Shown piece by piece: positions 13,824 to 54,762 of a stretch of 64,000 nt of DNA. A program made the translations under genes and the position numbers. The notes beneath the pieces are model-generated. The model was given only the letters and a program-made list of their open reading frames with translations. It was not told the DNA's origin and searched no databases. The first letter of the stretch is position 1, and each line of letters begins with the position of its first letter. This DNA is from Collinsella sp. TF08-11AT (GTDB lineage: Bacteria > Actinomycetota > Coriobacteriia > Coriobacteriales > Coriobacteriaceae): NCBI RefSeq assembly GCF_003437035.1, contig NZ_QSRL01000001.1:372001-436000 (forward strand), read 5' to 3'.

Positions 13824-13894
13824 CACTCATTGGGGACGGACTTAAATGAGTACCTGCTCATTGGGCACTCATTTAAGTCCGTCCCCAATGAGTG
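13824..13894. repeat. REPIN-like paired GGGGAC repeat
   Basis: A perfect 28-bp inverted repeat (13824-13851 and 13867-13894) with a 15-bp spacer. Each arm is itself palindromic (CACTCATTGGGGACGGACTT ... AAATGAGT). Two REP-like units are therefore arranged head to head, as in REPINs. It lies between the importer promoter region and the structured element after yqeY. Confidence 0.75.
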
Positions 13895-31629: not shown

Positions 31630-31776
31630 AAAAGCTCGACCGCCGCCCTGCGACCTACCGGAGATTGCTATGCCGTACGTTGGCTGATTTGGTTTGGAAT
31701 GAGATGCTGACGGTAGTCAATGGGCACAACTGTCCCGGGTGCATTTCAAGATGCACCTAAATGTCTGCCTTCATCC

Positions 31777-32253
31777 TTATAGATTGTCCAGGTAGTCGTC
31801 GGCATCATAGGTAAGGCTGTAGGCTTTATTCAGGATGCGCACGAGCTCCTGAGCATCGTGTTCGCCGAGCGCTGAGAGCTGCTTCGAGAGCGATGCCACA
31901 CTCTCGGCATTTTTTTTCGCCGCGAAATCACGGCCTTCCTCGGTAATGCTCACCAGCACACGCCGACGATCGTTTGGATCGGTCCTGCGCTGAACGTAAC
32001 CCTTGCTCTCGAGTGAATCCAAGATATGCGACATGCGCGCACGGGAGAATTTCAGCTTCTTGGCAATCTCGGAGGGAATAACATCACCGTCAATACCCGA
32101 TAGATACTGTAAAACCGGTGCCTCGCCCACACTGGCGCCGCCGGCAGCACTCAAGGATCCCTTGGCAAGGGAACGTGAGTACACAATCAGTTTTCGAGCG
32201 ACGTCATCGTAATCCACTGGGGATATTGTCCTTTGCAACTCTAGAAGGGCCAT
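31777..32253 (-). CDS. MarR-family transcriptional regulator
   Basis: 158 residues, predicted cytoplasmic winged-helix dimer. The DNA-binding region is IPSEIAKKLKFSRARMSHILDSLESKGYVQRRTDPNDRRRVLVSITEEG (~60-108, with the wing DPNDRRR). The N- and C-terminal helices form the dimer part. The start ATG has a weak ribosome binding site. It is upstream of and codirectional with the GH31 gene, with 510 bp between, and may regulate it (inference from proximity and the palindromes in between). Effector unknown. Confidence 0.9.
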   Translation of the reverse strand: MALLELQRTISPVDYDDVARKLIVYSRSLAKGSLSAAGGASVGEAPVLQYLSGIDGDVIPSEIAKKLKFSRARMSHILDSLESKGYVQRRTDPNDRRRVLVSITEEGRDFAAKKNAESVASLSKQLSALGEHDAQELVRILNKAYSLTYDADDYLDNL

Positions 32254-32321
32254 AAAACCGTCATTTGCCGTACATTAGTTAACATTCGCAACAATTATTT
32301 ATGATACCCCAACGCGGAAGT

Positions 32322-32648
32322 CTATTGCTCGTCCTTCTTGCGTCGCATAAGCTCCTCAACGTCGATACCCGCGGCCTCGAGCATACGCTCAACATTCTTT
32401 TTGGCGTTGGTCGTGCCAACCTTAAGCACAATCGAAAGCGGAGTGCCCACCACCAAGCATACGATGCCCGCGGGGACGCCCCAGCCGGGGCCGCCCTGCA
32501 TACCCCACATCCCCACCAAAAAGCCAATAGCCACGAGCGAATAGCCCAGACGCAGCCAAACGTTGAGCCGCTGAATAGCATCGGTCTGCATCTTTGCCTC
32601 GCGGATCAAGTCGTCGCGCGAAAGGTCGTGTCCGTGTTTCTCGTGCAT
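32322..32648 (-). CDS. Small membrane protein of unknown function (two TM helices)
   Basis: 108 residues. A charged N terminus (HEKHGHDLSRDDLIREAK) precedes two hydrophobic segments (LGYSLVAIGFLVGMWGM; WGVPAGIVCLVVGTPLSIVL) and a basic C-terminal tail with a coiled look (NAKKNVERMLEAAGIDVEELMRRKK). AGGAGG precedes the ATG. I do not recognise a family. The gene stands alone between the PTS operon terminator and the MarR gene. Confidence 0.75.
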   Translation of the reverse strand: MHEKHGHDLSRDDLIREAKMQTDAIQRLNVWLRLGYSLVAIGFLVGMWGMQGGPGWGVPAGIVCLVVGTPLSIVLKVGTTNAKKNVERMLEAAGIDVEELMRRKKDEQ

Positions 32649-32792
32649 ATGGGTCCTCCTCGTGCAAAGCGTGCATCATGTGCAAGAACATCGTTTTTCG
32701 AATACGTCATCTTTCAAGAGCAATATAGCGGGTGTCGTGTAGGCGATGGAGGTCGCTGGCCATATTGCCCTTGAAGGGCGGCGCAAAATCAG

Positions 32793-32822
32793 AAGGCCGT
32801 GCGGTTGAGGCCGCACGGCCTT
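32793..32822 (-). terminator. Terminator of the mannose-family PTS operon
   Basis: AAGGCCGTGCGG/CCGCACGGCCTT, a 12-bp perfect stem 23 bp past the IID stop. The T-run on the minus strand is short (CTGATTTTG). Confidence 0.75.
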
Positions 32823-32844
32823 ACAGGGGGCCAGGGGATGATGA

Positions 32845-33672
32845 CTAGTAGCTCAGTGCCGGGTCGAAGAAGCCAATAACAACGCCCACGAATGCGATCA
32901 CGACGAGAATCAGCATCATAACGATGGGGTTGACCTTCTTCTTGGTCATCATGTACCAGCAGAAGATGATGAAGACCATCGGCAGCAGGTGCGGATAGAT
33001 GCCATCGAGAGTGTCCTGGAACTTACCGCCGCCGGGCAGCACCAGGTTGGGGCTGCAGGTGATGGAGACCCAGGTAGCACCGACTGCACCGATGACCATG
33101 GTACCGACCATCACGATGGAATCGCGAAGAGCCTTTGCCTTGGGGCCGACCAGTGCCTCAACCGCCTTGCCGCCGAGCTCATAGCCCTGGTTGTAGGCAA
33201 AGCGCATGCCGAGGTACATGAGCAGGTTCCACACGACGATATAGAAGATAGCGCCGAGCGGGGAGCCGCCGGTCGAGAGACCGAGGGCGATACCGAGCAG
33301 GATCGGGATCAGGGTACCGACGATCAGCGAGTCGCCAAGGCCGGCGAGCGGGCCCATGAGGCCGGCGCGGATGCCGTTGATGGCGTCGTCGTCGATGGCC
33401 TCGCCGTTTGCGCGAGCCTCCTCGAGGCCGGCGGTGACGCCGACAATCATGGTGCCGATCTGCGGCTCGGTGTTGAAGAACGCGGAGTAGGTCTGGAGGG
33501 CCTGCTTCTGCTCCTCGGGCGTGTCGTAGAGCTCCTCGACGATCGGAAGCATGGCGCACAGGTAACCGAAGGTCTGCATGTGCTCCTGCGAGAAGCAAGT
33601 CAGGTTGCCATAGGACCAGTTGCGGAACGACTTGGCAAGCGTTTTCTTAGAGAGTTTCTTCTTCTCTGCCAT
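32845..33672 (-). CDS. PTS system mannose/fructose/sorbose family IID subunit
   Basis: 275 residues, membrane component of the sugar permease. FRNWSYGNLTCFSQEHMQTFGYLCAMLPIVEELY near the N terminus, GLMGPLAGLGDSLIVGTLIPILLGIALGLS (~107-136), GMRFAYNQGYELGGKAVE and a C-terminal hydrophobic segment are hallmarks of ManZ-type proteins. Its ATG overlaps the stop of the IIC gene by one base (TAATG). Last gene of the IIA-IIB-IIC-IID operon. The sugar cannot be told from sequence; mannose, fructose, sorbose or amino sugars are possible. Confidence 0.95.
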   Translation of the reverse strand: MAEKKKLSKKTLAKSFRNWSYGNLTCFSQEHMQTFGYLCAMLPIVEELYDTPEEQKQALQTYSAFFNTEPQIGTMIVGVTAGLEEARANGEAIDDDAINGIRAGLMGPLAGLGDSLIVGTLIPILLGIALGLSTGGSPLGAIFYIVVWNLLMYLGMRFAYNQGYELGGKAVEALVGPKAKALRDSIVMVGTMVIGAVGATWVSITCSPNLVLPGGGKFQDTLDGIYPHLLPMVFIIFCWYMMTKKKVNPIVMMLILVVIAFVGVVIGFFDPALSY

Positions 33673-34529
33673 TAGATGTCCTCCTCTTCCTCATCATCGG
33701 AGCCCGAGGCGATAGCTGCCTTGGGAGCGTTTGCGAGGTCGATCTTGAGCGAAGCGATCTCATAGTTGATCAGGGCGAAGAAGCAGCCGATGCCGGCGGC
33801 GGCAATCAGGTTGCATCCCATGACAGCGGACAGGGTGAAGCCGAAGAAGAACGTGAGGAAGTCCGTCGGCTTGGAGATGACCTGCTTGAGCAGGATGGCG
33901 ATACCGACGGTAGGCAGCAGCGAGCCGACGGTGAACAGCGTCTTCATCGCGATGCCGTCCATGGGCATGTAGGTCTTCATGAGGTCGACCATGGCGGTGC
34001 CGCCCATGGTGATGATGAACGTCGGGAGGAACGAGCAGACGATGTGACCAATCCAAGGCAGAACGTTGTTGACCAGGTAGAGCTTGTGGAGATCGCCCTT
34101 CTCGAGCCACTTCCACCCCATGCCCTGCCACACCAGGTTGATGGTGGCGGTGCCATAGAAGAGCACAGTGCCGAGCGTGCCGACGGCGGCACCGAGGGAT
34201 GCGGCCATGCCGGCAGCCTCAGCGGAGGCGGGATCGATGCCCGAGTTCTTGATGGCGAGGATCGCCAGCGGGATGCCGATATAGGACACGGCGCGGACGT
34301 CGGCGGAGACGGTTCCGCCGGGGGTCACGAGAGCGATGTAGACAACCTGGATGGCAGCGCCGACGAGGATGCCCGTCTGCATATCGCCCATGATGATGCC
34401 GACGATGAGGCCGGCGACCAGAGGACGACCCAGAGTGTAGTTGCCGATCGTCGTGCCGCCCATGCCAGGCAGTGATGCCAGGCAGGCGAACAGGCCGAAC
34501 AGCGCGGCTTGGAATGCATTGATTGCCAT
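33672..34529 (-). CDS. PTS system mannose/fructose/sorbose family IIC subunit
   Basis: 285 residues, polytopic sugar channel. PLVAGLIVGIIMGDMQTGILVGAAIQVVYIALVTPGGTVSADVRAV (~34-80) contains the family's conserved GxxxGDxxxG region. A further series of hydrophobic segments follows, ending in an acidic tail SGSDDEEEEDI. It partners with IID and receives phosphate via IIA and IIB encoded upstream. Located 71 bp after the IIB gene. Confidence 0.95.
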   Translation of the reverse strand: MAINAFQAALFGLFACLASLPGMGGTTIGNYTLGRPLVAGLIVGIIMGDMQTGILVGAAIQVVYIALVTPGGTVSADVRAVSYIGIPLAILAIKNSGIDPASAEAAGMAASLGAAVGTLGTVLFYGTATINLVWQGMGWKWLEKGDLHKLYLVNNVLPWIGHIVCSFLPTFIITMGGTAMVDLMKTYMPMDGIAMKTLFTVGSLLPTVGIAILLKQVISKPTDFLTFFFGFTLSAVMGCNLIAAAGIGCFFALINYEIASLKIDLANAPKAAIASGSDDEEEEDI

Positions 34530-34600
34530 GCTTTCCCCTTTCTTTATTCCTCAGCCCCTTTCCCCAGGGCTGTAGGTACCAAAATGCAGCTGGCGCCTAA

Positions 34601-35089
34601 CTAGAAGCCAAACTGACCGCGGAACTTGGGCCACTCACCAATGGATTTCTCCTTGATAAGGGCGAACTCGACCGTGTAGCCGGCGTTGGTGAGATCCTCG
34701 AGCGCCTGGGCCTCTTCCTGCGTGATCGACTGGTTGTTGCCGAGCTTGGTGGCGCCGGGACGGTCGTTGCAGGGGCCGACGATGATGCGGTCCATGCCGG
34801 GCTTAAAGCCAAAATCGACGAGAAGTTCCTTCATGTCGAGCGGGTTCTTGGTGATCAGGAAGTACTTGGTGTTGGACTTGAGAACCTTCTCGGAGACCTC
34901 CTTGAAGTGCTCCTTGGTCCACACGAACGTCTTCTTGCCCGAGGCACTCTTGTAGGCCTCCTTGAGCACGGGGTTGGACGCTGCAGCGTCGTTGACGGCG
35001 ATAAGACCGTCGCAGGGATACTCGAGGGCCCAACGGGTAACGGTCTGTCCATGGATCATACGGTCGTCAATACGGATGAACGAAATCAT
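34601..35089 (-). CDS. PTS system mannose/fructose/sorbose family IIB subunit
   Basis: 162 residues, cytoplasmic phosphocarrier. The active histidine is in IRIDDRMIHGQTVTRW (~5-20), the standard IIB signature, followed by DGLIAVNDAAASNPVLKEAYK. VGPCNDRPGATKLGNNQSIT is also conserved. Transfers phosphate from IIA to the incoming sugar. AGGGAGAACGC precedes the ATG. Confidence 0.95.
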   Translation of the reverse strand: MISFIRIDDRMIHGQTVTRWALEYPCDGLIAVNDAAASNPVLKEAYKSASGKKTFVWTKEHFKEVSEKVLKSNTKYFLITKNPLDMKELLVDFGFKPGMDRIIVGPCNDRPGATKLGNNQSITQEEAQALEDLTNAGYTVEFALIKEKSIGEWPKFRGQFGF

Positions 35090-35168
35090 GCGTTCTCCCT
35101 TTCTTTATCACCGGGGGTCTTTCCTCTTAACCCCCGCTCCATCACAAAAATTGGGGCGGATGCGCTGC

Positions 35169-35603
35169 CTAGATGTCGTCGTCCTCGTCGTCGGCGTCAT
35201 CGGTCGGGACCACAAGCTCGGACATACCGTTCTTGCCCTCCTGCAGCATCATCTGCTTGAGAGAATCCAGGTCCATGGTGGCAAGCCCCATCATGGCGGT
35301 CATAGCCATGGGCAGATTCATACCGCCGAAGGCAATGGTGTGGGCGGGCAAGCCCTTCTCGGCCAGCGTGTTCATAGCATTGGTGAGCGGCGATCCGCCC
35401 AGGATGTCACCGAGCAGGACAACCTCGTCATCGGCGGTAACGGGAGCGACCATCGCCTTGACGTTCTCGACATATTCGTCAGCGCCCATGCCGTCCACGA
35501 GACTCGTCGACAAGATGTTCGGGGCGTCATTGCCGAGCATCTTGAGGACACTGTGCAGTCCGGGAGCGAGCGTTCCGTGACTGACCATTACCAGATACCG
35601 CAT
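35169..35603 (-). CDS. PTS system mannose-family IIA subunit
   Basis: 144 residues. YLVMVSHGTLAPGLHSVLKM holds the phosphorylatable histidine (~9). DEVVLLGDILGGSPLTNAM (~58-76) and AFGGMNLPMAMTAMMG are typical of ManX-type IIA domains. ATG 35603 follows GAGGAGACC; the longer upstream frame lacks a ribosome binding site. The C terminus is very acidic (DDADDEDDDI), as in the IIC subunit. First gene of the operon and the entry point for phosphate from HPr. Confidence 0.93.
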   Translation of the reverse strand: MRYLVMVSHGTLAPGLHSVLKMLGNDAPNILSTSLVDGMGADEYVENVKAMVAPVTADDEVVLLGDILGGSPLTNAMNTLAEKGLPAHTIAFGGMNLPMAMTAMMGLATMDLDSLKQMMLQEGKNGMSELVVPTDDADDEDDDI

Positions 35604-35689
35604 GCGGTCTCCTCTCGACCTGCCGTGTGTCGCACGGCTTTGCTTTTTGCTGAGATTATTGTTGCGCCGGGGCATGTTCGGTACAAGAA

Positions 35690-35736
35690 AATAGTTGTGA
35701 ACGGCAACTATTCATCGGTTAACGGTAGCAACTATT
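35690..35736. promoter_or_regulatory. Candidate operators for the PTS operon or the divergent GntR gene
   Basis: AATAGTTG (35690-35697) and CAACTATT (35705-35712) form an inverted repeat with a 7-bp spacer. A second CAACTATT lies at 35729-35736, 24 bp from the first. All sit in the 308-bp divergent region, which is AT-rich. Likely regulator sites; the binding protein is inferred to be the GntR product. Confidence 0.45.
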
Positions 35737-35911
35737 TTTGTGCCTAAATTATTTTTTCTTCTAATTATTTTTAAAATAGCAGGTAGATTGCCTGATAAAT
35801 GTTTTATGTTCCTTATGCACCATACATACCAGCAAGAATCGGGCCTGGCATCTCCGGTTTGCCCCGCAGTGTCAGACCATGTCACGTACGCCCACGACAT
35901 GGAGGTACCCC

Positions 35912-36694
35912 ATGGATATGATCTCGTTTCTCGCCTCCGAACCCTTCGACCGCAGCGGTGATACGCCGCTCTATGTCCAACTTAAACATCGAATCGCCCT
36001 GCTTATCGCCAGCCAGGCGTTCGACACCAAGACGCCGCTGCCACGCGAGCTCGAAATCTGTGAACGGCTAGAGTTATCGCGCGCGACCGTGCGCCGTTGC
36101 TTCCAAGATCTCGTCATCGAGGGGCGCGTGGTGCGCAAACGTGGGCAGGGCACGTTCATCAAACCCCAAACCTCAGCACCCGGCATCGACCTGGCCCTGA
36201 ATTTCAGCGCGCGGATGCGCGAAGCGGGACGGGTTCCGAGCTCGCAGATTCTCGCCTTTTCAAGCATACCGGCCGTCCGCGGCATCGCCTCTGGGCTCAA
36301 AGTGCCCGAGGGGACACCCGTCTGGGAGATTCGCCGCCTGCGTCTCGCCAACGACAAACCCATGGAGCTCAACTACGTCTATATCCTCGTGTCACTTTGC
36401 CCCGAGCTCACACGCAAAGACGTGGATGGCTCGCTCTACGCCTACATCGCGGAAAAGACCGGCATCCTGCCCGCAAGCGTCGATGCCGTCTACGAGACGG
36501 TCAACCTCGACAAGCATGAGGCGCGCCTTTTGGGACAGAACACCGGTAAGGCGGCGATGCGCATCGTGCGTTCGACCTACGACAAGACGGGAACCCCGTT
36601 CGAGGTAGGCGTGCTCATCAGCTGCGACGGTCAGGCAAAGCTGCACGTGCACATCGCCGCCGACAAAACAACCTTCACCGCCACAGCCCAATAA
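35912..36694 (+). CDS. GntR-family (HutC/UTRA) transcriptional regulator
   Basis: 260 residues. N-terminal winged helix (PLYVQLKHRIALLIASQAF, then PRELEICERLELSRATVRRCFQDLVIEGRVVRKRGQGTFI, ~20-80) and C-terminal UTRA ligand-binding domain (VPSSQILAFSSIPAV ... VWEIRRLRLANDKPMELNYVYI ... FEVGVLIS). UTRA domains usually bind phosphorylated sugars. It is divergent from the mannose-family PTS operon and is the obvious candidate to control it. ATG 35912 is chosen for GGAGG six bases upstream. A perfect hairpin terminator follows. Confidence 0.92.
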   Translation: MDMISFLASEPFDRSGDTPLYVQLKHRIALLIASQAFDTKTPLPRELEICERLELSRATVRRCFQDLVIEGRVVRKRGQGTFIKPQTSAPGIDLALNFSARMREAGRVPSSQILAFSSIPAVRGIASGLKVPEGTPVWEIRRLRLANDKPMELNYVYILVSLCPELTRKDVDGSLYAYIAEKTGILPASVDAVYETVNLDKHEARLLGQNTGKAAMRIVRSTYDKTGTPFEVGVLISCDGQAKLHVHIAADKTTFTATAQ

Positions 36695-36703
36695 ATCCAA
36701 AAC

Positions 36704-36739
36704 GTGGGCTCCGCCGTTCGAACGAACGGCGGAGCCCAC
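36704..36739. terminator. Bidirectional terminator between the GntR gene and carB
   Basis: GTGGGCTCCGCCGTTCG pairs perfectly with CGAACGGCGGAGCCCAC over two bases. T-rich sequence follows on the plus strand (CTTTCTTTTTC) and GTTTT on the minus strand. Confidence 0.85.
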
Positions 36740-52212: not shown

Positions 52213-52303
52213 GGAGAGTTGTCCGAGTGGCCGAAGGAGCACGATTGGAAATCGTGTAGGCGTCAAAAGCGTCTCCAGGGTTCAAATCCCTGACTCTCCG
52301 CCA
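52213..52303 (+). tRNA. tRNA-Ser (anticodon GGA)
   Basis: Acceptor stem GGAGAGT/ACTCTCC with G discriminator and encoded CCA. Anticodon arm CACGA-TTGGAAA-TCGTG gives anticodon GGA. The long variable arm typical of serine tRNAs is present, and the T arm has GGTTCAAATCC. Confidence 0.97.
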
Positions 52304-52351: not shown

Positions 52352-52442
52352 GGAGGGGTGGCAGAGTGGTTGAATGCGGCGGTCTCGAAAACCGTTTGGC
52401 CTGTATAAGGTCACGAGGGTTCGAATCCCTCCTCCTCCGCCA
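52352..52442 (+). tRNA. tRNA-Ser (anticodon CGA)
   Basis: Acceptor GGAGGGG pairs with CTCCTCC including one G-T, discriminator G and CCA. Anticodon loop CTCGAAA gives CGA. Long variable arm. Its last 25 bases before the final A recur inverted at 52507-52531. Confidence 0.97.
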
Positions 52443-52480: not shown

Positions 52481-52506
52481 GTTTAGAGTCCCTTACAAGC
52501 AAATAC

Positions 52507-52650
52507 GGCGGAGGAGGAGGGATTCGAACCCGTCAGGACGCGGAGCGTAAAGAAAACGCGCCAGTGGCACGTTTTTAGCGCAGCGCGGTCGGCGCAAGCC
52601 GACCGAATAAATTTTGAGCTCCGCTCAAAATTTGGACATCCCTCCTCTTC
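52507..52650. repeat. Nested palindromes containing an inverted tRNA-Ser 3' end
   Basis: 52507-52531 is the exact reverse complement of tRNA-Ser(CGA) bases 52417-52441. GAGGAGGAGGGAT (52510-52522) is mirrored, one mismatch, by ATCCCTCCTCTTC (52638-52650). Inside are two perfect hairpins: GGTCGGC-GCAA-GCCGACC (52587-52604) and AAATTTTGAGC/GCTCAAAATTT (52609-52633). It marks the left edge of an accessory island. Confidence 0.7.
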
Positions 52651-52691
52651 AACCCACACCCCCATCACGTTCAATCCCAACCCAACATCCC

Positions 52692-52756
52692 AAACATGTA
52701 CATCACCCTCCAAAGATGTCAAAAAATGTCGTTTTTGGAGGGTGGTGTACACGTTT
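52692..52756 (+). repeat. 65-bp palindrome, left end of the nuclease unit
   Basis: AAACATGTACATCACCCTCC... pairs over 23 bp (two mismatches) with 52734-52756; the loop contains GATGTCAAAAAATGTCG. It matches the reverse complement of 53893-53957 at most positions. Confidence 0.75.
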
Positions 52757-52861
52757 GTATATGACACACGCCGTGCATGAGTCGGCTTACTCGCATTCGG
52801 TATATTTCCCCACCTCAACGGACATAAGAGTTGGGTATCGACTCAGAGCGAGAGGTCCCCA

Positions 52862-53869
52862 ATGGATACCCCTGTTCTCATTTCGCATAAAACTGCATGG
52901 CTCGTCCATCACGCGCCGCAAGGCCGGGTTCAAGCGGTCGCGCAACACGACTACCAGATAGGCGCAAGAGGTCTCTCCACCCAGCAACGCATCGCGCGCA
53001 TACGACAGGCCCTCACCGACTGCGGCATTCCGCCCGATATGTTCAAGACTATCGATATCTCCGTAGTGTTTGCTTTCGAGCGAATTCGCACCAACGGCGT
53101 CACTTGCCATGTTCTCGGCCAAAGCCTACCCTATGGCCATATTGACGAGCTTACGCCCGGCATCTTTATCACCGACGAAGCCTTCACCTTCGTGCTCGCC
53201 GCCGAGTGGATGGATAGAATCGAATACCTCGAGTATGGCTACGAAGTTTGCGGCGACTATCGCATGGGCCTTAATCCCTCTGACCCTTATACCGAGCAAC
53301 CAGCAACCACCTCCAAGGACGAAATTGTCGAACTGCTCGATCAACACCCTGGCAAACCCGGTGCCACACGCGCGCGACTCGCGCTCAGACATGTCTACGA
53401 CCACCCGGTCTCGCCTATGGAGGCTGCATCGGCAATCGCACTTTCACTTCCAACAAGCGAAGGCGGCGTTGGCATTCGAGGCATCGAGCTCAACCGACCG
53501 CTCGAGATCCCTCAACGTCTTTGGCATTGCACCAAAGCCCGAACACTCAAAATCGATGCCCTCATTACCTATAAGCGCAGAGAGCTCGGCATCGAATATA
53601 AGGGTGGCTTTCACGACGAGACTGGCCGTAAGGGAGCAGATGCGGAACGCGAAGCTGTGCTCGCCCAAATGGGTTATCGCATTGTCACACTCACCTCAGC
53701 GCAATTTGCCAGTCAACTCGCTTTTCACCGTGCCATGAACAATATCCGCGAAGCACTCGGTATGCCCCGCTGCACGGATGCCGAGTATCAGCGAAAGCAA
53801 AACGAACTGCGAAAGGCACTTATCCGCAACTGGAAGGGCACGAAGGACATAGAGACGCCCTCCGAGTAA
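52862..53869 (+). CDS. Nuclease-like accessory protein B (PD-(D/E)XK-type C terminus, inferred)
   Basis: 335 residues; role unknown. The N terminus begins LISHKTAW. The middle has AFTFVLAAEWMD and TRARLALRHVYDHPVSPMEAASAIALSLPTSEGGVGI, a pattern shared with many restriction-like accessory proteins. The C-terminal ~110 residues read LKIDALITYKRRELGIEYKGGFHD, then DAEREAVLAQMGYRIVTLTSAQF: the D...ExK plus downstream helix of a Vsr/DUF559-like nuclease. Asp and Glu-x-Lys are intact here, unlike in the paralog at 95-1222. AGAGGTCCCCA precedes the ATG. It is the only gene between two inverted 65-bp palindromes beside tRNA-Ser genes. Whether it is a defence gene or the engine of a mobile unit is unknown. 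Confidence 0.7.
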   Translation: MDTPVLISHKTAWLVHHAPQGRVQAVAQHDYQIGARGLSTQQRIARIRQALTDCGIPPDMFKTIDISVVFAFERIRTNGVTCHVLGQSLPYGHIDELTPGIFITDEAFTFVLAAEWMDRIEYLEYGYEVCGDYRMGLNPSDPYTEQPATTSKDEIVELLDQHPGKPGATRARLALRHVYDHPVSPMEAASAIALSLPTSEGGVGIRGIELNRPLEIPQRLWHCTKARTLKIDALITYKRRELGIEYKGGFHDETGRKGADAEREAVLAQMGYRIVTLTSAQFASQLAFHRAMNNIREALGMPRCTDAEYQRKQNELRKALIRNWKGTKDIETPSE

Positions 53870-53892
53870 CGTCGCCCGCTCGGCGCGCGCCA

Positions 53893-53957
53893 AAACATGT
53901 ACATCATCCGCCAAAAACGACATTTTTCGACATCTTTGGAGGCTGGTATACATGTTT
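53893..53957 (-). repeat. 65-bp palindrome, right end of the nuclease unit
   Basis: 23-bp imperfect arms (53893-53915 and 53935-53957) around AACGACATTTTTCGACATC. It is an inverted relative of 52692-52756, beginning 23 bp past the nuclease-like gene's stop. Confidence 0.75.
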
Positions 53958-54072
53958 GGAACCTATGACCGCACCCAACCCCTACCGTTTGCCGAGCAAT
54001 AGGGTCGCAATCGCCGCCAACCATGTACTATGTACGGGCATTGTCCAAACCTGCAACTCAAAGGATTCCATC

Positions 54073-54762
54073 TTGCCCGCTGTCGCCGCTATGACCGTTA
54101 CTTCACACGCTTCGGATGCCATGGTCGCTATCCCATTTTGGCTTGAGATGTTCGCTGTTGTCGCGGCATCAATCTCGGGCGTGTTGGTCGCGCGCGAGCA
54201 TAAGCTTGACCTGGTGGGCGCGGTCGCACTCGCCGTGGTCTGCGGCCTGGGCGGTGGTCTTTTGCGCGATATGACACTCCAGGTCGGCAACGTCTACATC
54301 CTCAACCAGCCAATGGCGCTGCCGCTTTCCATTGCCACGGCAGCCATCATCTATATTTTCCCGGCAATCGTCGACAAGCCCGAAAAACTCATTCCCCTGC
54401 TCGACATCATCTCGGTCGGCATCTACGCCGCCACTGGAGCAGACAAGGCGCTGGTCTACGGCTTTGCGCCGGCGGTGTGCATCATGATGGGCTTTTTCAC
54501 CGCGGTGGGCGGCGGCATGTTGCGCGATGGCTTTATGGGCGTGGTTCCGGGCATTTTCCAACGTACTAACTTTTATGCCATCGCCGCCATCGCCGGATCG
54601 ACAAGCTATGTGTGTCTCGTTATGAGCGGCATTATGAGCAATGTCGCCGCGCTGGTCGTATGCGTTGTCGTGACCATGGGTCTGCGCTGGCTCTCGCTGC
54701 GCTTTGACATCAAAAGCCCCACCGAAGAGGACATCGCGCGCTTTTTGCACCACAAAAAGTAG
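54073..54762 (+). CDS. TRIC/UPF0126-family membrane channel protein
   Basis: 229 residues from TTG 54073, chosen for AAAGGA seven bases upstream; ATG codons at 54091 or 54121 are alternatives. Two repeats of three helices each carry the family motif: GLGGGLLRDMTL and AVGGGMLRDGFMG. About seven hydrophobic segments in total. Prokaryotic TRIC homologues are cation channels in the cytoplasmic membrane; the physiological ion here is not known. Single gene just right of the accessory island. Confidence 0.85.
   Translation: MPAVAAMTVTSHASDAMVAIPFWLEMFAVVAASISGVLVAREHKLDLVGAVALAVVCGLGGGLLRDMTLQVGNVYILNQPMALPLSIATAAIIYIFPAIVDKPEKLIPLLDIISVGIYAATGADKALVYGFAPAVCIMMGFFTAVGGGMLRDGFMGVVPGIFQRTNFYAIAAIAGSTSYVCLVMSGIMSNVAALVVCVVVTMGLRWLSLRFDIKSPTEEDIARFLHHKK

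Follow-up and report, generated by a model that had tools for sequence, protein, structure and literature searches.

Several described systems pair a nuclease with a long DNA target or a single gene with repeats. The known EDxHD enzyme forms a dimer on its target, which is nearly 60 bp long (PMC3943268, excerpt), AbiEi-type proteins bind inverted repeats and autoregulate through them (PMC7319586, excerpt), and the MTES_1575-type domain was described as a novel Vsr-REase in a giant fusion with helicase and HEPN (PMC3710099, excerpt). RAYT (TnpA-REP) genes lie singly between direct or inverted palindromes, and insertion sequences carry one gene between inverted ends. Here we analyse a stretch of 64,000 nucleotides from Collinsella sp. 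TF08-11AT (contig NZ_QSRL01000001.1, positions 372,001 to 436,000; hereafter the window), in which one nuclease gene stands between two long palindromes. This palindrome-bounded unit is one member of a large family in Coriobacteriia. Its parts are as follows:

52690-52756, no strand: left palindrome (class 1), 67 nt, loop GATGTCAAAAAATGTCG; from inverted-repeat and fold analysis
52862-53869, + strand: nuclease gene, 335 aa, with an AbiEi-like N-terminal half (~1-180) and a Vsr/EDxHD-type nuclease domain (~183-302)
53893-53959, no strand: right palindrome, 67 nt, inverted relative to the left copy; from inverted-repeat and fold analysis

The palindromes form an inverted pair, 88% complementary with 1136 nt between them, and each is also a hairpin alone. 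The RNA-fold z-scores for the two strands were -10.4 and -7.5 (left) and -4.4 and -5.4 (right), and in each of the four tests none of 200 shuffles folded as well. With up to three mismatches allowed, the loop motif occurs at only two places in the window (0.19 matches expected by chance; two matches in 2 of 100 shuffles), and exactly one open reading frame (ORF), that of 335 aa, lies between the palindromes. A preliminary description of this DNA had reported 65-bp palindromes around a single gene; the pair is real and its extent is refined to 67 nt. As candidates for a known RNA family, Rfam gave only below-gathering eukaryotic microRNA matches at the left palindrome (best E 4e-4), which were rejected; in 18 homologue loci its sole gathering-level match was a tRNA, and no known RNA family was found.

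The structure model of the protein is confident (pLDDT 92.6). In it, residues 1-179 are predicted to adopt the AbiEi fold and the nuclease domain appears to be of the Vsr/EDxHD type, its nearest structure being the homing endonuclease I-Bth0305I (VIA-align re-ranking of Foldseek's list, and limited to folds on that list). The nuclease fold proposed in the preliminary description is thus supported by the model, and the lysine of its "D...ExK" core is present (K247). However, just 8 of the 55 homologues have lysine there; E187, D232 and H251 are found in 55/55, D260 in 54/55 and E245 in 52/55. Because K247 is rarely kept and these residues nearly always are, the active site, as judged from the alignment, looks EDxHD/Vsr-like rather than classical D..ExK; we take the conserved acidic and histidine residues of the E187/D232/H251 type to be those of the EDxHD family. 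The nuclease domain is under purifying selection. In Pfam, the window protein matches MTES_1575 (E 6e-5) and DUF559 (E 0.03), both under the curated cut-off; at E 0.01 these families match 20/55 and 13/55 homologues, respectively, and the other matches were HTH_Tnp_1 (E 0.0013) and DUF2726, in one homologue each. Pfam gave no HUH/Y1 transposase domain in the window protein or the 55 homologues and no transposase domain of any kind in the window protein, in agreement with the preliminary description. No match to the window protein was found in NCBIfam or PADLOC, the PADLOC absence being weak evidence. The AbiEii profile PF08843 (E 1e-8; searched in the genomes) matched in none of 7 of the 8 gene-bearing genomes and once in the eighth (G005), on another contig. 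No partner gene was evident in the ORF lists, in which neighbours were judged without a profile scan for, e.g., a methyltransferase.

The site of the unit was compared in 43 sister genomes of the genus, counted apart from the window, using the following features:

52213-52303 and 52352-52442, + strand: two tRNA-Ser genes, left landmark of the site, outside the unit
53956-54762, + strand: right-hand neighbour ORF, of which 54075-54762 served as landmark; presumably TRIC-like
52635-54079, no strand: tract exchanged between the window and CANRSF010000009.1 (G005), with 2 differences inside and dense differences directly outside both ends

An orthologue of the window protein (87-100% identical over the full length) is present in 9 of the 43 genomes and a class-1 palindrome in 22, all nine gene carriers included. 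At the tRNA-Ser site, these 22 genomes have the full unit (9), one palindrome (4: G012, G044, G050 and G052) or neither palindrome nor gene (8); in G053 the contig ends. Empty sites beside tRNA-Ser, which the preliminary description had envisaged, therefore do exist. The empty alleles run straight across the site. Both junctions of the G052 lone-palindrome allele are shared with the window allele, and G012 likewise agrees next to the palindrome; G044 and G012 have further deletions on the left. By eye, no target site duplication was visible between lone-palindrome and empty alleles at this one site. Three arrangements of the full unit occur: palindromes (+,-) with the gene forward (window, G005), palindromes (-,-) with the gene forward (G007, G041) and palindromes (-,+) with the gene reversed (six genomes). 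The two gene orientations were also considered as products of a simple inversion of one allele, an origin that was set aside because one inversion does not produce these arrangements.

The window unit was recently exchanged between genomes: the window and G005, an uncultured Collinsella, differ at two positions in the whole tract and densely on both sides of it, the breakpoints lying 56 bp and 120 bp outside the palindromes. Identity also drops at about the right palindrome in G041/G007 and G003/G004. These comparisons establish the exchange of the unit rather than its mechanism, because the conserved genes on the left are near-identical in some pairs and the flank trees show free recombination; with their poor resolution and recombination, these trees do not allow gains and losses to be dated. 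The tRNA-Ser genes named in the preliminary description are indeed close by, but the unit starts ~250 bp downstream of a tRNA-Ser gene, not inside it, and no special role of the tRNA for the unit was found. Some 55 nt downstream of the tRNA-Ser gene, at 52502-52531, lies a reversed copy of the tRNA-Ser 3' end (30 nt, 93%), followed by repeat-like sequence; similar sequence is also present in empty alleles.

The protein has many relatives with repeats of their own. A 38%-identical paralogue (clade 2) occurs in 18 of the 22 palindrome-positive genomes (the G010 copy is partial and the G041 copy contains a stop). At one locus its flanking palindromes are different ones of 65 bp, which are direct repeats wherever both are visible; in G001, those same flanks enclose a single palindrome without the gene. 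For a general test, the 600-bp upstream and downstream flanks of each gene were compared for a common repeat, at a threshold of 40 bits, in 88 of 89 homologue loci (L042 has no intact ORF); the controls were 167 ORFs (200-500 aa) drawn from 20 stretches in these or related genomes. A repeat pair was found around 52/88 homologues versus 1/167 controls (1/59 when only controls with gaps of 80 bp or more at both ends are counted), and around 30 of 56 protein clusters after collapsing at 60% identity (Fisher p 1e-20). It was the window together with the first 30 loci that had prompted the hypothesis, and some clade-1 and clade-2 flanks had also been inspected earlier; 15 of the 40 loci chosen before their flanks were inspected (L125-L164) have a repeat pair, as do 6 of 22 from the later phylum search (p 8e-6; the other 8 of its 30 loci repeat earlier ones). 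The association of gene and repeat is thus strong but not universal. One genome had 14 matches, and at least 11 were counted in each of two genomes in the phylum search. Among the 198 genomes of the phylum search, 15 had strong matches, 13 of them in the same order. Outside the class, the gene of G066 lies between 64-bp direct palindromes, which occur at 8 places in that genome including those two, and the gene of G192 has no repeat pair in the flank test. In L028, L127, L131 and other loci the flanking units are long (140-360 bp), with nested hairpins (e.g., GCCGAGAAG...CTTCTCGGC) inside outer arms. An ACCTGC core shared by the longer units was considered and dropped, as it was present in both copies of only 5/19 units versus 22/167 control stretches.

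Two further loci offer cases of joint change: the left and right repeats of the gene have altered together, and the accompanying protein differences fall mostly in the N-terminal half. The first is the clade-2 locus: between G004 and G019, which share the same flanks, 156/200 of residues 1-200 are identical versus 138/145 of the remainder, and both G004 palindromes differ from those of G019 in the same way (palindromes of the ACCATCACAACATTCGATG and ACCGTCCCAAAAATCGATG types in the G019 and G004 alleles). The second locus belongs to a distant homologue at the start of the window:

95-1222, + strand: second, distant homologue, 375 aa, with its own palindromic units
1257-1458, no strand: 202-bp unit downstream of the second homologue; its inverted arms are TACAAATCTGAACTAACTGTCC

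Orthologues of this protein (86-91% identity) occur in 6 of 25 genomes searched (G001, G004, G005, G010, G011, G012); at E 1e-80 none was found in G003, G007, G009 and G014. The gene has inverted arms to its left and right, of which each genome matches three or four out of an expected four; the matched arms read TACAAAT in the window, G005 and G012 but TACGTAT in G001, G004, G010 and G011. All 11 fixed protein differences between these arm groups fall in residues 42-175. Arms of this second type are present in 17/43 genomes, and all eight in G012 are TACAAAT. The 16 distinct units are all 200-203 bp long, although the script would accept roughly 137-260 bp, whereas their interiors fall into five groups with a mutual mean identity of 0.45, versus 0.44 for shuffled sequence. 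This retention of length without retention of sequence points to a complex that would keep two arms a fixed distance apart. At window 31714-36733, ~5 kb (ORFs that we take to be a sugar phosphotransferase-system operon and a GntR-type regulator) replaces a ~290-bp stretch with one 202-bp unit in G009 (L308); the 202-bp units may lie at hot spots of gene gain and loss.

Class-1 palindromes also occur away from the nuclease gene. Counting both strands, there are 2 to 10 matches per positive genome, which is not the large number of dispersed palindromes per genome seen with RAYT/REP. Outside the tRNA site, the class-1 palindromes among the 54 palindrome loci examined sort by their flanks into three groups, each shared between genomes and lying near what we take to be a MazG-like gene, a dus/glutaredoxin-like region and a pgsA-like gene, respectively. 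In the second group, direct pairs enclose variable cargo of 0.5-5 kb; the variable cargo between direct pairs in L187, L189, L197, L207 and others presumably includes small toxin-antitoxin-like and transposase-like ORFs. In the first group, a pair in G044 (L185, 1073-5443) surrounds two ORFs, one ABC-transporter-like (1185 aa) and one of 140 aa; the other genomes examined have one palindrome there. As pairs enclose such cargo, there are signs that class-1 palindromes are exchange points and not merely ends of the nuclease gene. The expectation of the preliminary description that pairs always flank homologues did not hold, class-1 palindromes being found at other sites without the gene; it had counted such palindromes against its proposal, and in part they do speak that way, but homologues in many lineages have flanking repeats of their own. 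A strong 71-nt hairpin with a GGGGACG motif lies at window 13824-13894, and a similar hairpin adjoins the class-1 palindrome in L001.

We propose, at about even confidence, that these are single-gene units whose nuclease recognises the palindromes on either side and, through break repair, either spreads or sets off rearrangement. The AbiEi-like half would bind the inverted arms of its own palindrome, probably as a dimer spanning it, and the EDxHD/Vsr-like domain would nick or cut at or near the palindrome. Host recombination would then repair the break from a sister copy, so that gene and palindromes are copied into palindrome-only sites in a homing-like manner; now and then, the DNA between two palindromes could be exchanged, inverted or deleted. 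A dimer on a 65-bp palindrome is plausible because a known EDxHD enzyme dimerises on a ~60-bp target and AbiEi-type proteins bind inverted repeats. Of the two possibilities raised in the preliminary description, a nuclease-driven mobile or selfish unit is the best reading, whereas a defence gene has no direct support (no PADLOC match). A wider proposal is that an AbiEi-like recogniser fused to an EDxHD nuclease makes up a new class of selfish or DNA-rearranging units. Every lineage would have its private code, made of inverted arms set a fixed distance apart that bound their own gene, mark further chromosomal sites and other cargo, and evolve jointly with the recogniser half; such units would be modular, naturally re-targeted and spread by break repair. 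This we regard as tentative, a possibility below an even chance.

Several observations weigh against the main reading. The presumed target survives insertion, which departs from the usual logic of homing endonucleases. Orthologues of the window protein occupy a single site only, and the three further class-1 sites are shared between genomes, so that no burst of movement is seen. Flanking genes recombine freely in the complex, and ordinary recombination could explain exchange and loss. In the flank test, the unseen loci overall (21/62) had fewer repeat pairs than the set that gave the hypothesis, 26 of 56 clusters had none at the threshold, and AbiE toxin operons as a further control had one in 3/29, with a wider search space upstream (the middle ORF of each locus was used without a profile check; 1 of 30 loci had none). 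At the second homologue, the N-terminal clustering (11/11) is not significant alone, as residues 1-225 hold 71 of the 82 variable sites, and arm types are mismatched in places, with a lone TACAAAT unit in each of G004 and G009 and a lone TACGTAT unit in G005.

The main rival is an operator model. The protein may be an autoregulated DNA-binding nuclease (in defence, as a toxin or as a regulator) with the palindromes as operators or terminators, and presence, absence and exchange may follow from ordinary homologous recombination helped by repeats and hairpins. Autoregulation via inverted repeats in AbiEi-like proteins (PMC7319586, excerpt) fits this, as do flanks that recombine anyway and dispersed palindromes at the same places in several genomes; the loss in G001 between direct repeats needs only repeat recombination. 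Yet the gene has units to its left and right alike, at distances of up to several hundred bp and in either orientation, AbiE operons rarely have such pairs (3/29), and fixed-length arm pairs at sites away from the gene would be odd for an operator. Moreover, a lone palindrome is not derivable from an inverted pair by simple recombination, yet four genomes have one. We consider this explanation rather unlikely, if the most serious competitor.

A resident nuclease that disperses or maintains non-autonomous palindromes, with its own gene flanked as RAYT genes are by REPs, is less probable still. It would account for the lone palindromes in the gene's lineage (22/43 genomes, all 9 carriers included), the 8 places in G066 and the single arm type in G012, and the layout of one gene between direct or inverted palindromes is that of RAYT/BIME. 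However, the nuclease is Vsr-like, with no HUH/Y1 match in Pfam, the copy number is low, the class-1 sites examined are common to genomes, and the gene itself comes and goes at its site. Self-marking defence, in which dispersed units would serve as a label of self on the chromosome or as a store for the nuclease, and incoming DNA that lacks units would be cut, appears highly improbable: purifying selection on the nuclease domain and fixed-length paired arms at several chromosomal sites agree with it, but there is no PADLOC match and no evident partner gene in the ORF lists, and palindromes persist in 13/22 genomes without the class-1 gene.

The palindrome-bounded units also differ from what has been described. 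With EDxHD homing endonucleases such as I-Bth0305I they share the nuclease-domain fold, the conserved acidic and histidine residues, exchange of a single gene between alleles and a long target (nearly 60 bp in the excerpt of PMC3943268, against palindromes of 65-67 bp here); in contrast, the unit does not reside in any intron, intein or split gene, carries an AbiEi-like DNA-binding half and keeps both flanking palindromes complete, hence also the presumed target if the palindrome is the target. The AbiEi fold is common to the AbiEi/Rv2827c type IV antitoxins, but here it is fused to a nuclease domain in a single gene. The nuclease domain matches that of the MTES_1575 protein, in whose description (PMC3710099) the excerpt makes no mention of palindromes. 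Like insertion sequences, the unit has one gene between inverted ends, and empty sites exist; unlike them, it has no recognised transposase domain, no target duplication at the one site compared, and ends that are complete palindromes. Of the families compared, homing endonucleases, RAYTs and insertion sequences are each at odds with the unit on a defining trait, and on this ground we rate the association as a new kind, although the mechanism may be homing-like after all. In searches of open-licence papers, the listed titles and abstract openings gave no earlier description of a nuclease gene paired with its own palindromes, and the excerpts of PMC8040213 (structured RNA) and PMC12306157 (RepRanger) contain nothing on such pairing.

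If the proposal is true, dozens of Coriobacteriia paralogues, and at least one beyond the class, would be nuclease units tied to private palindromes, and the long clade-specific palindromes in gut Actinomycetota would be explained. The family would also provide a natural series of proteins and DNA sites for reading how an AbiEi-like domain chooses its DNA, and would add to transposases, RAYTs and intron-borne homing genes a separate, nuclease-based way for a single gene to move.
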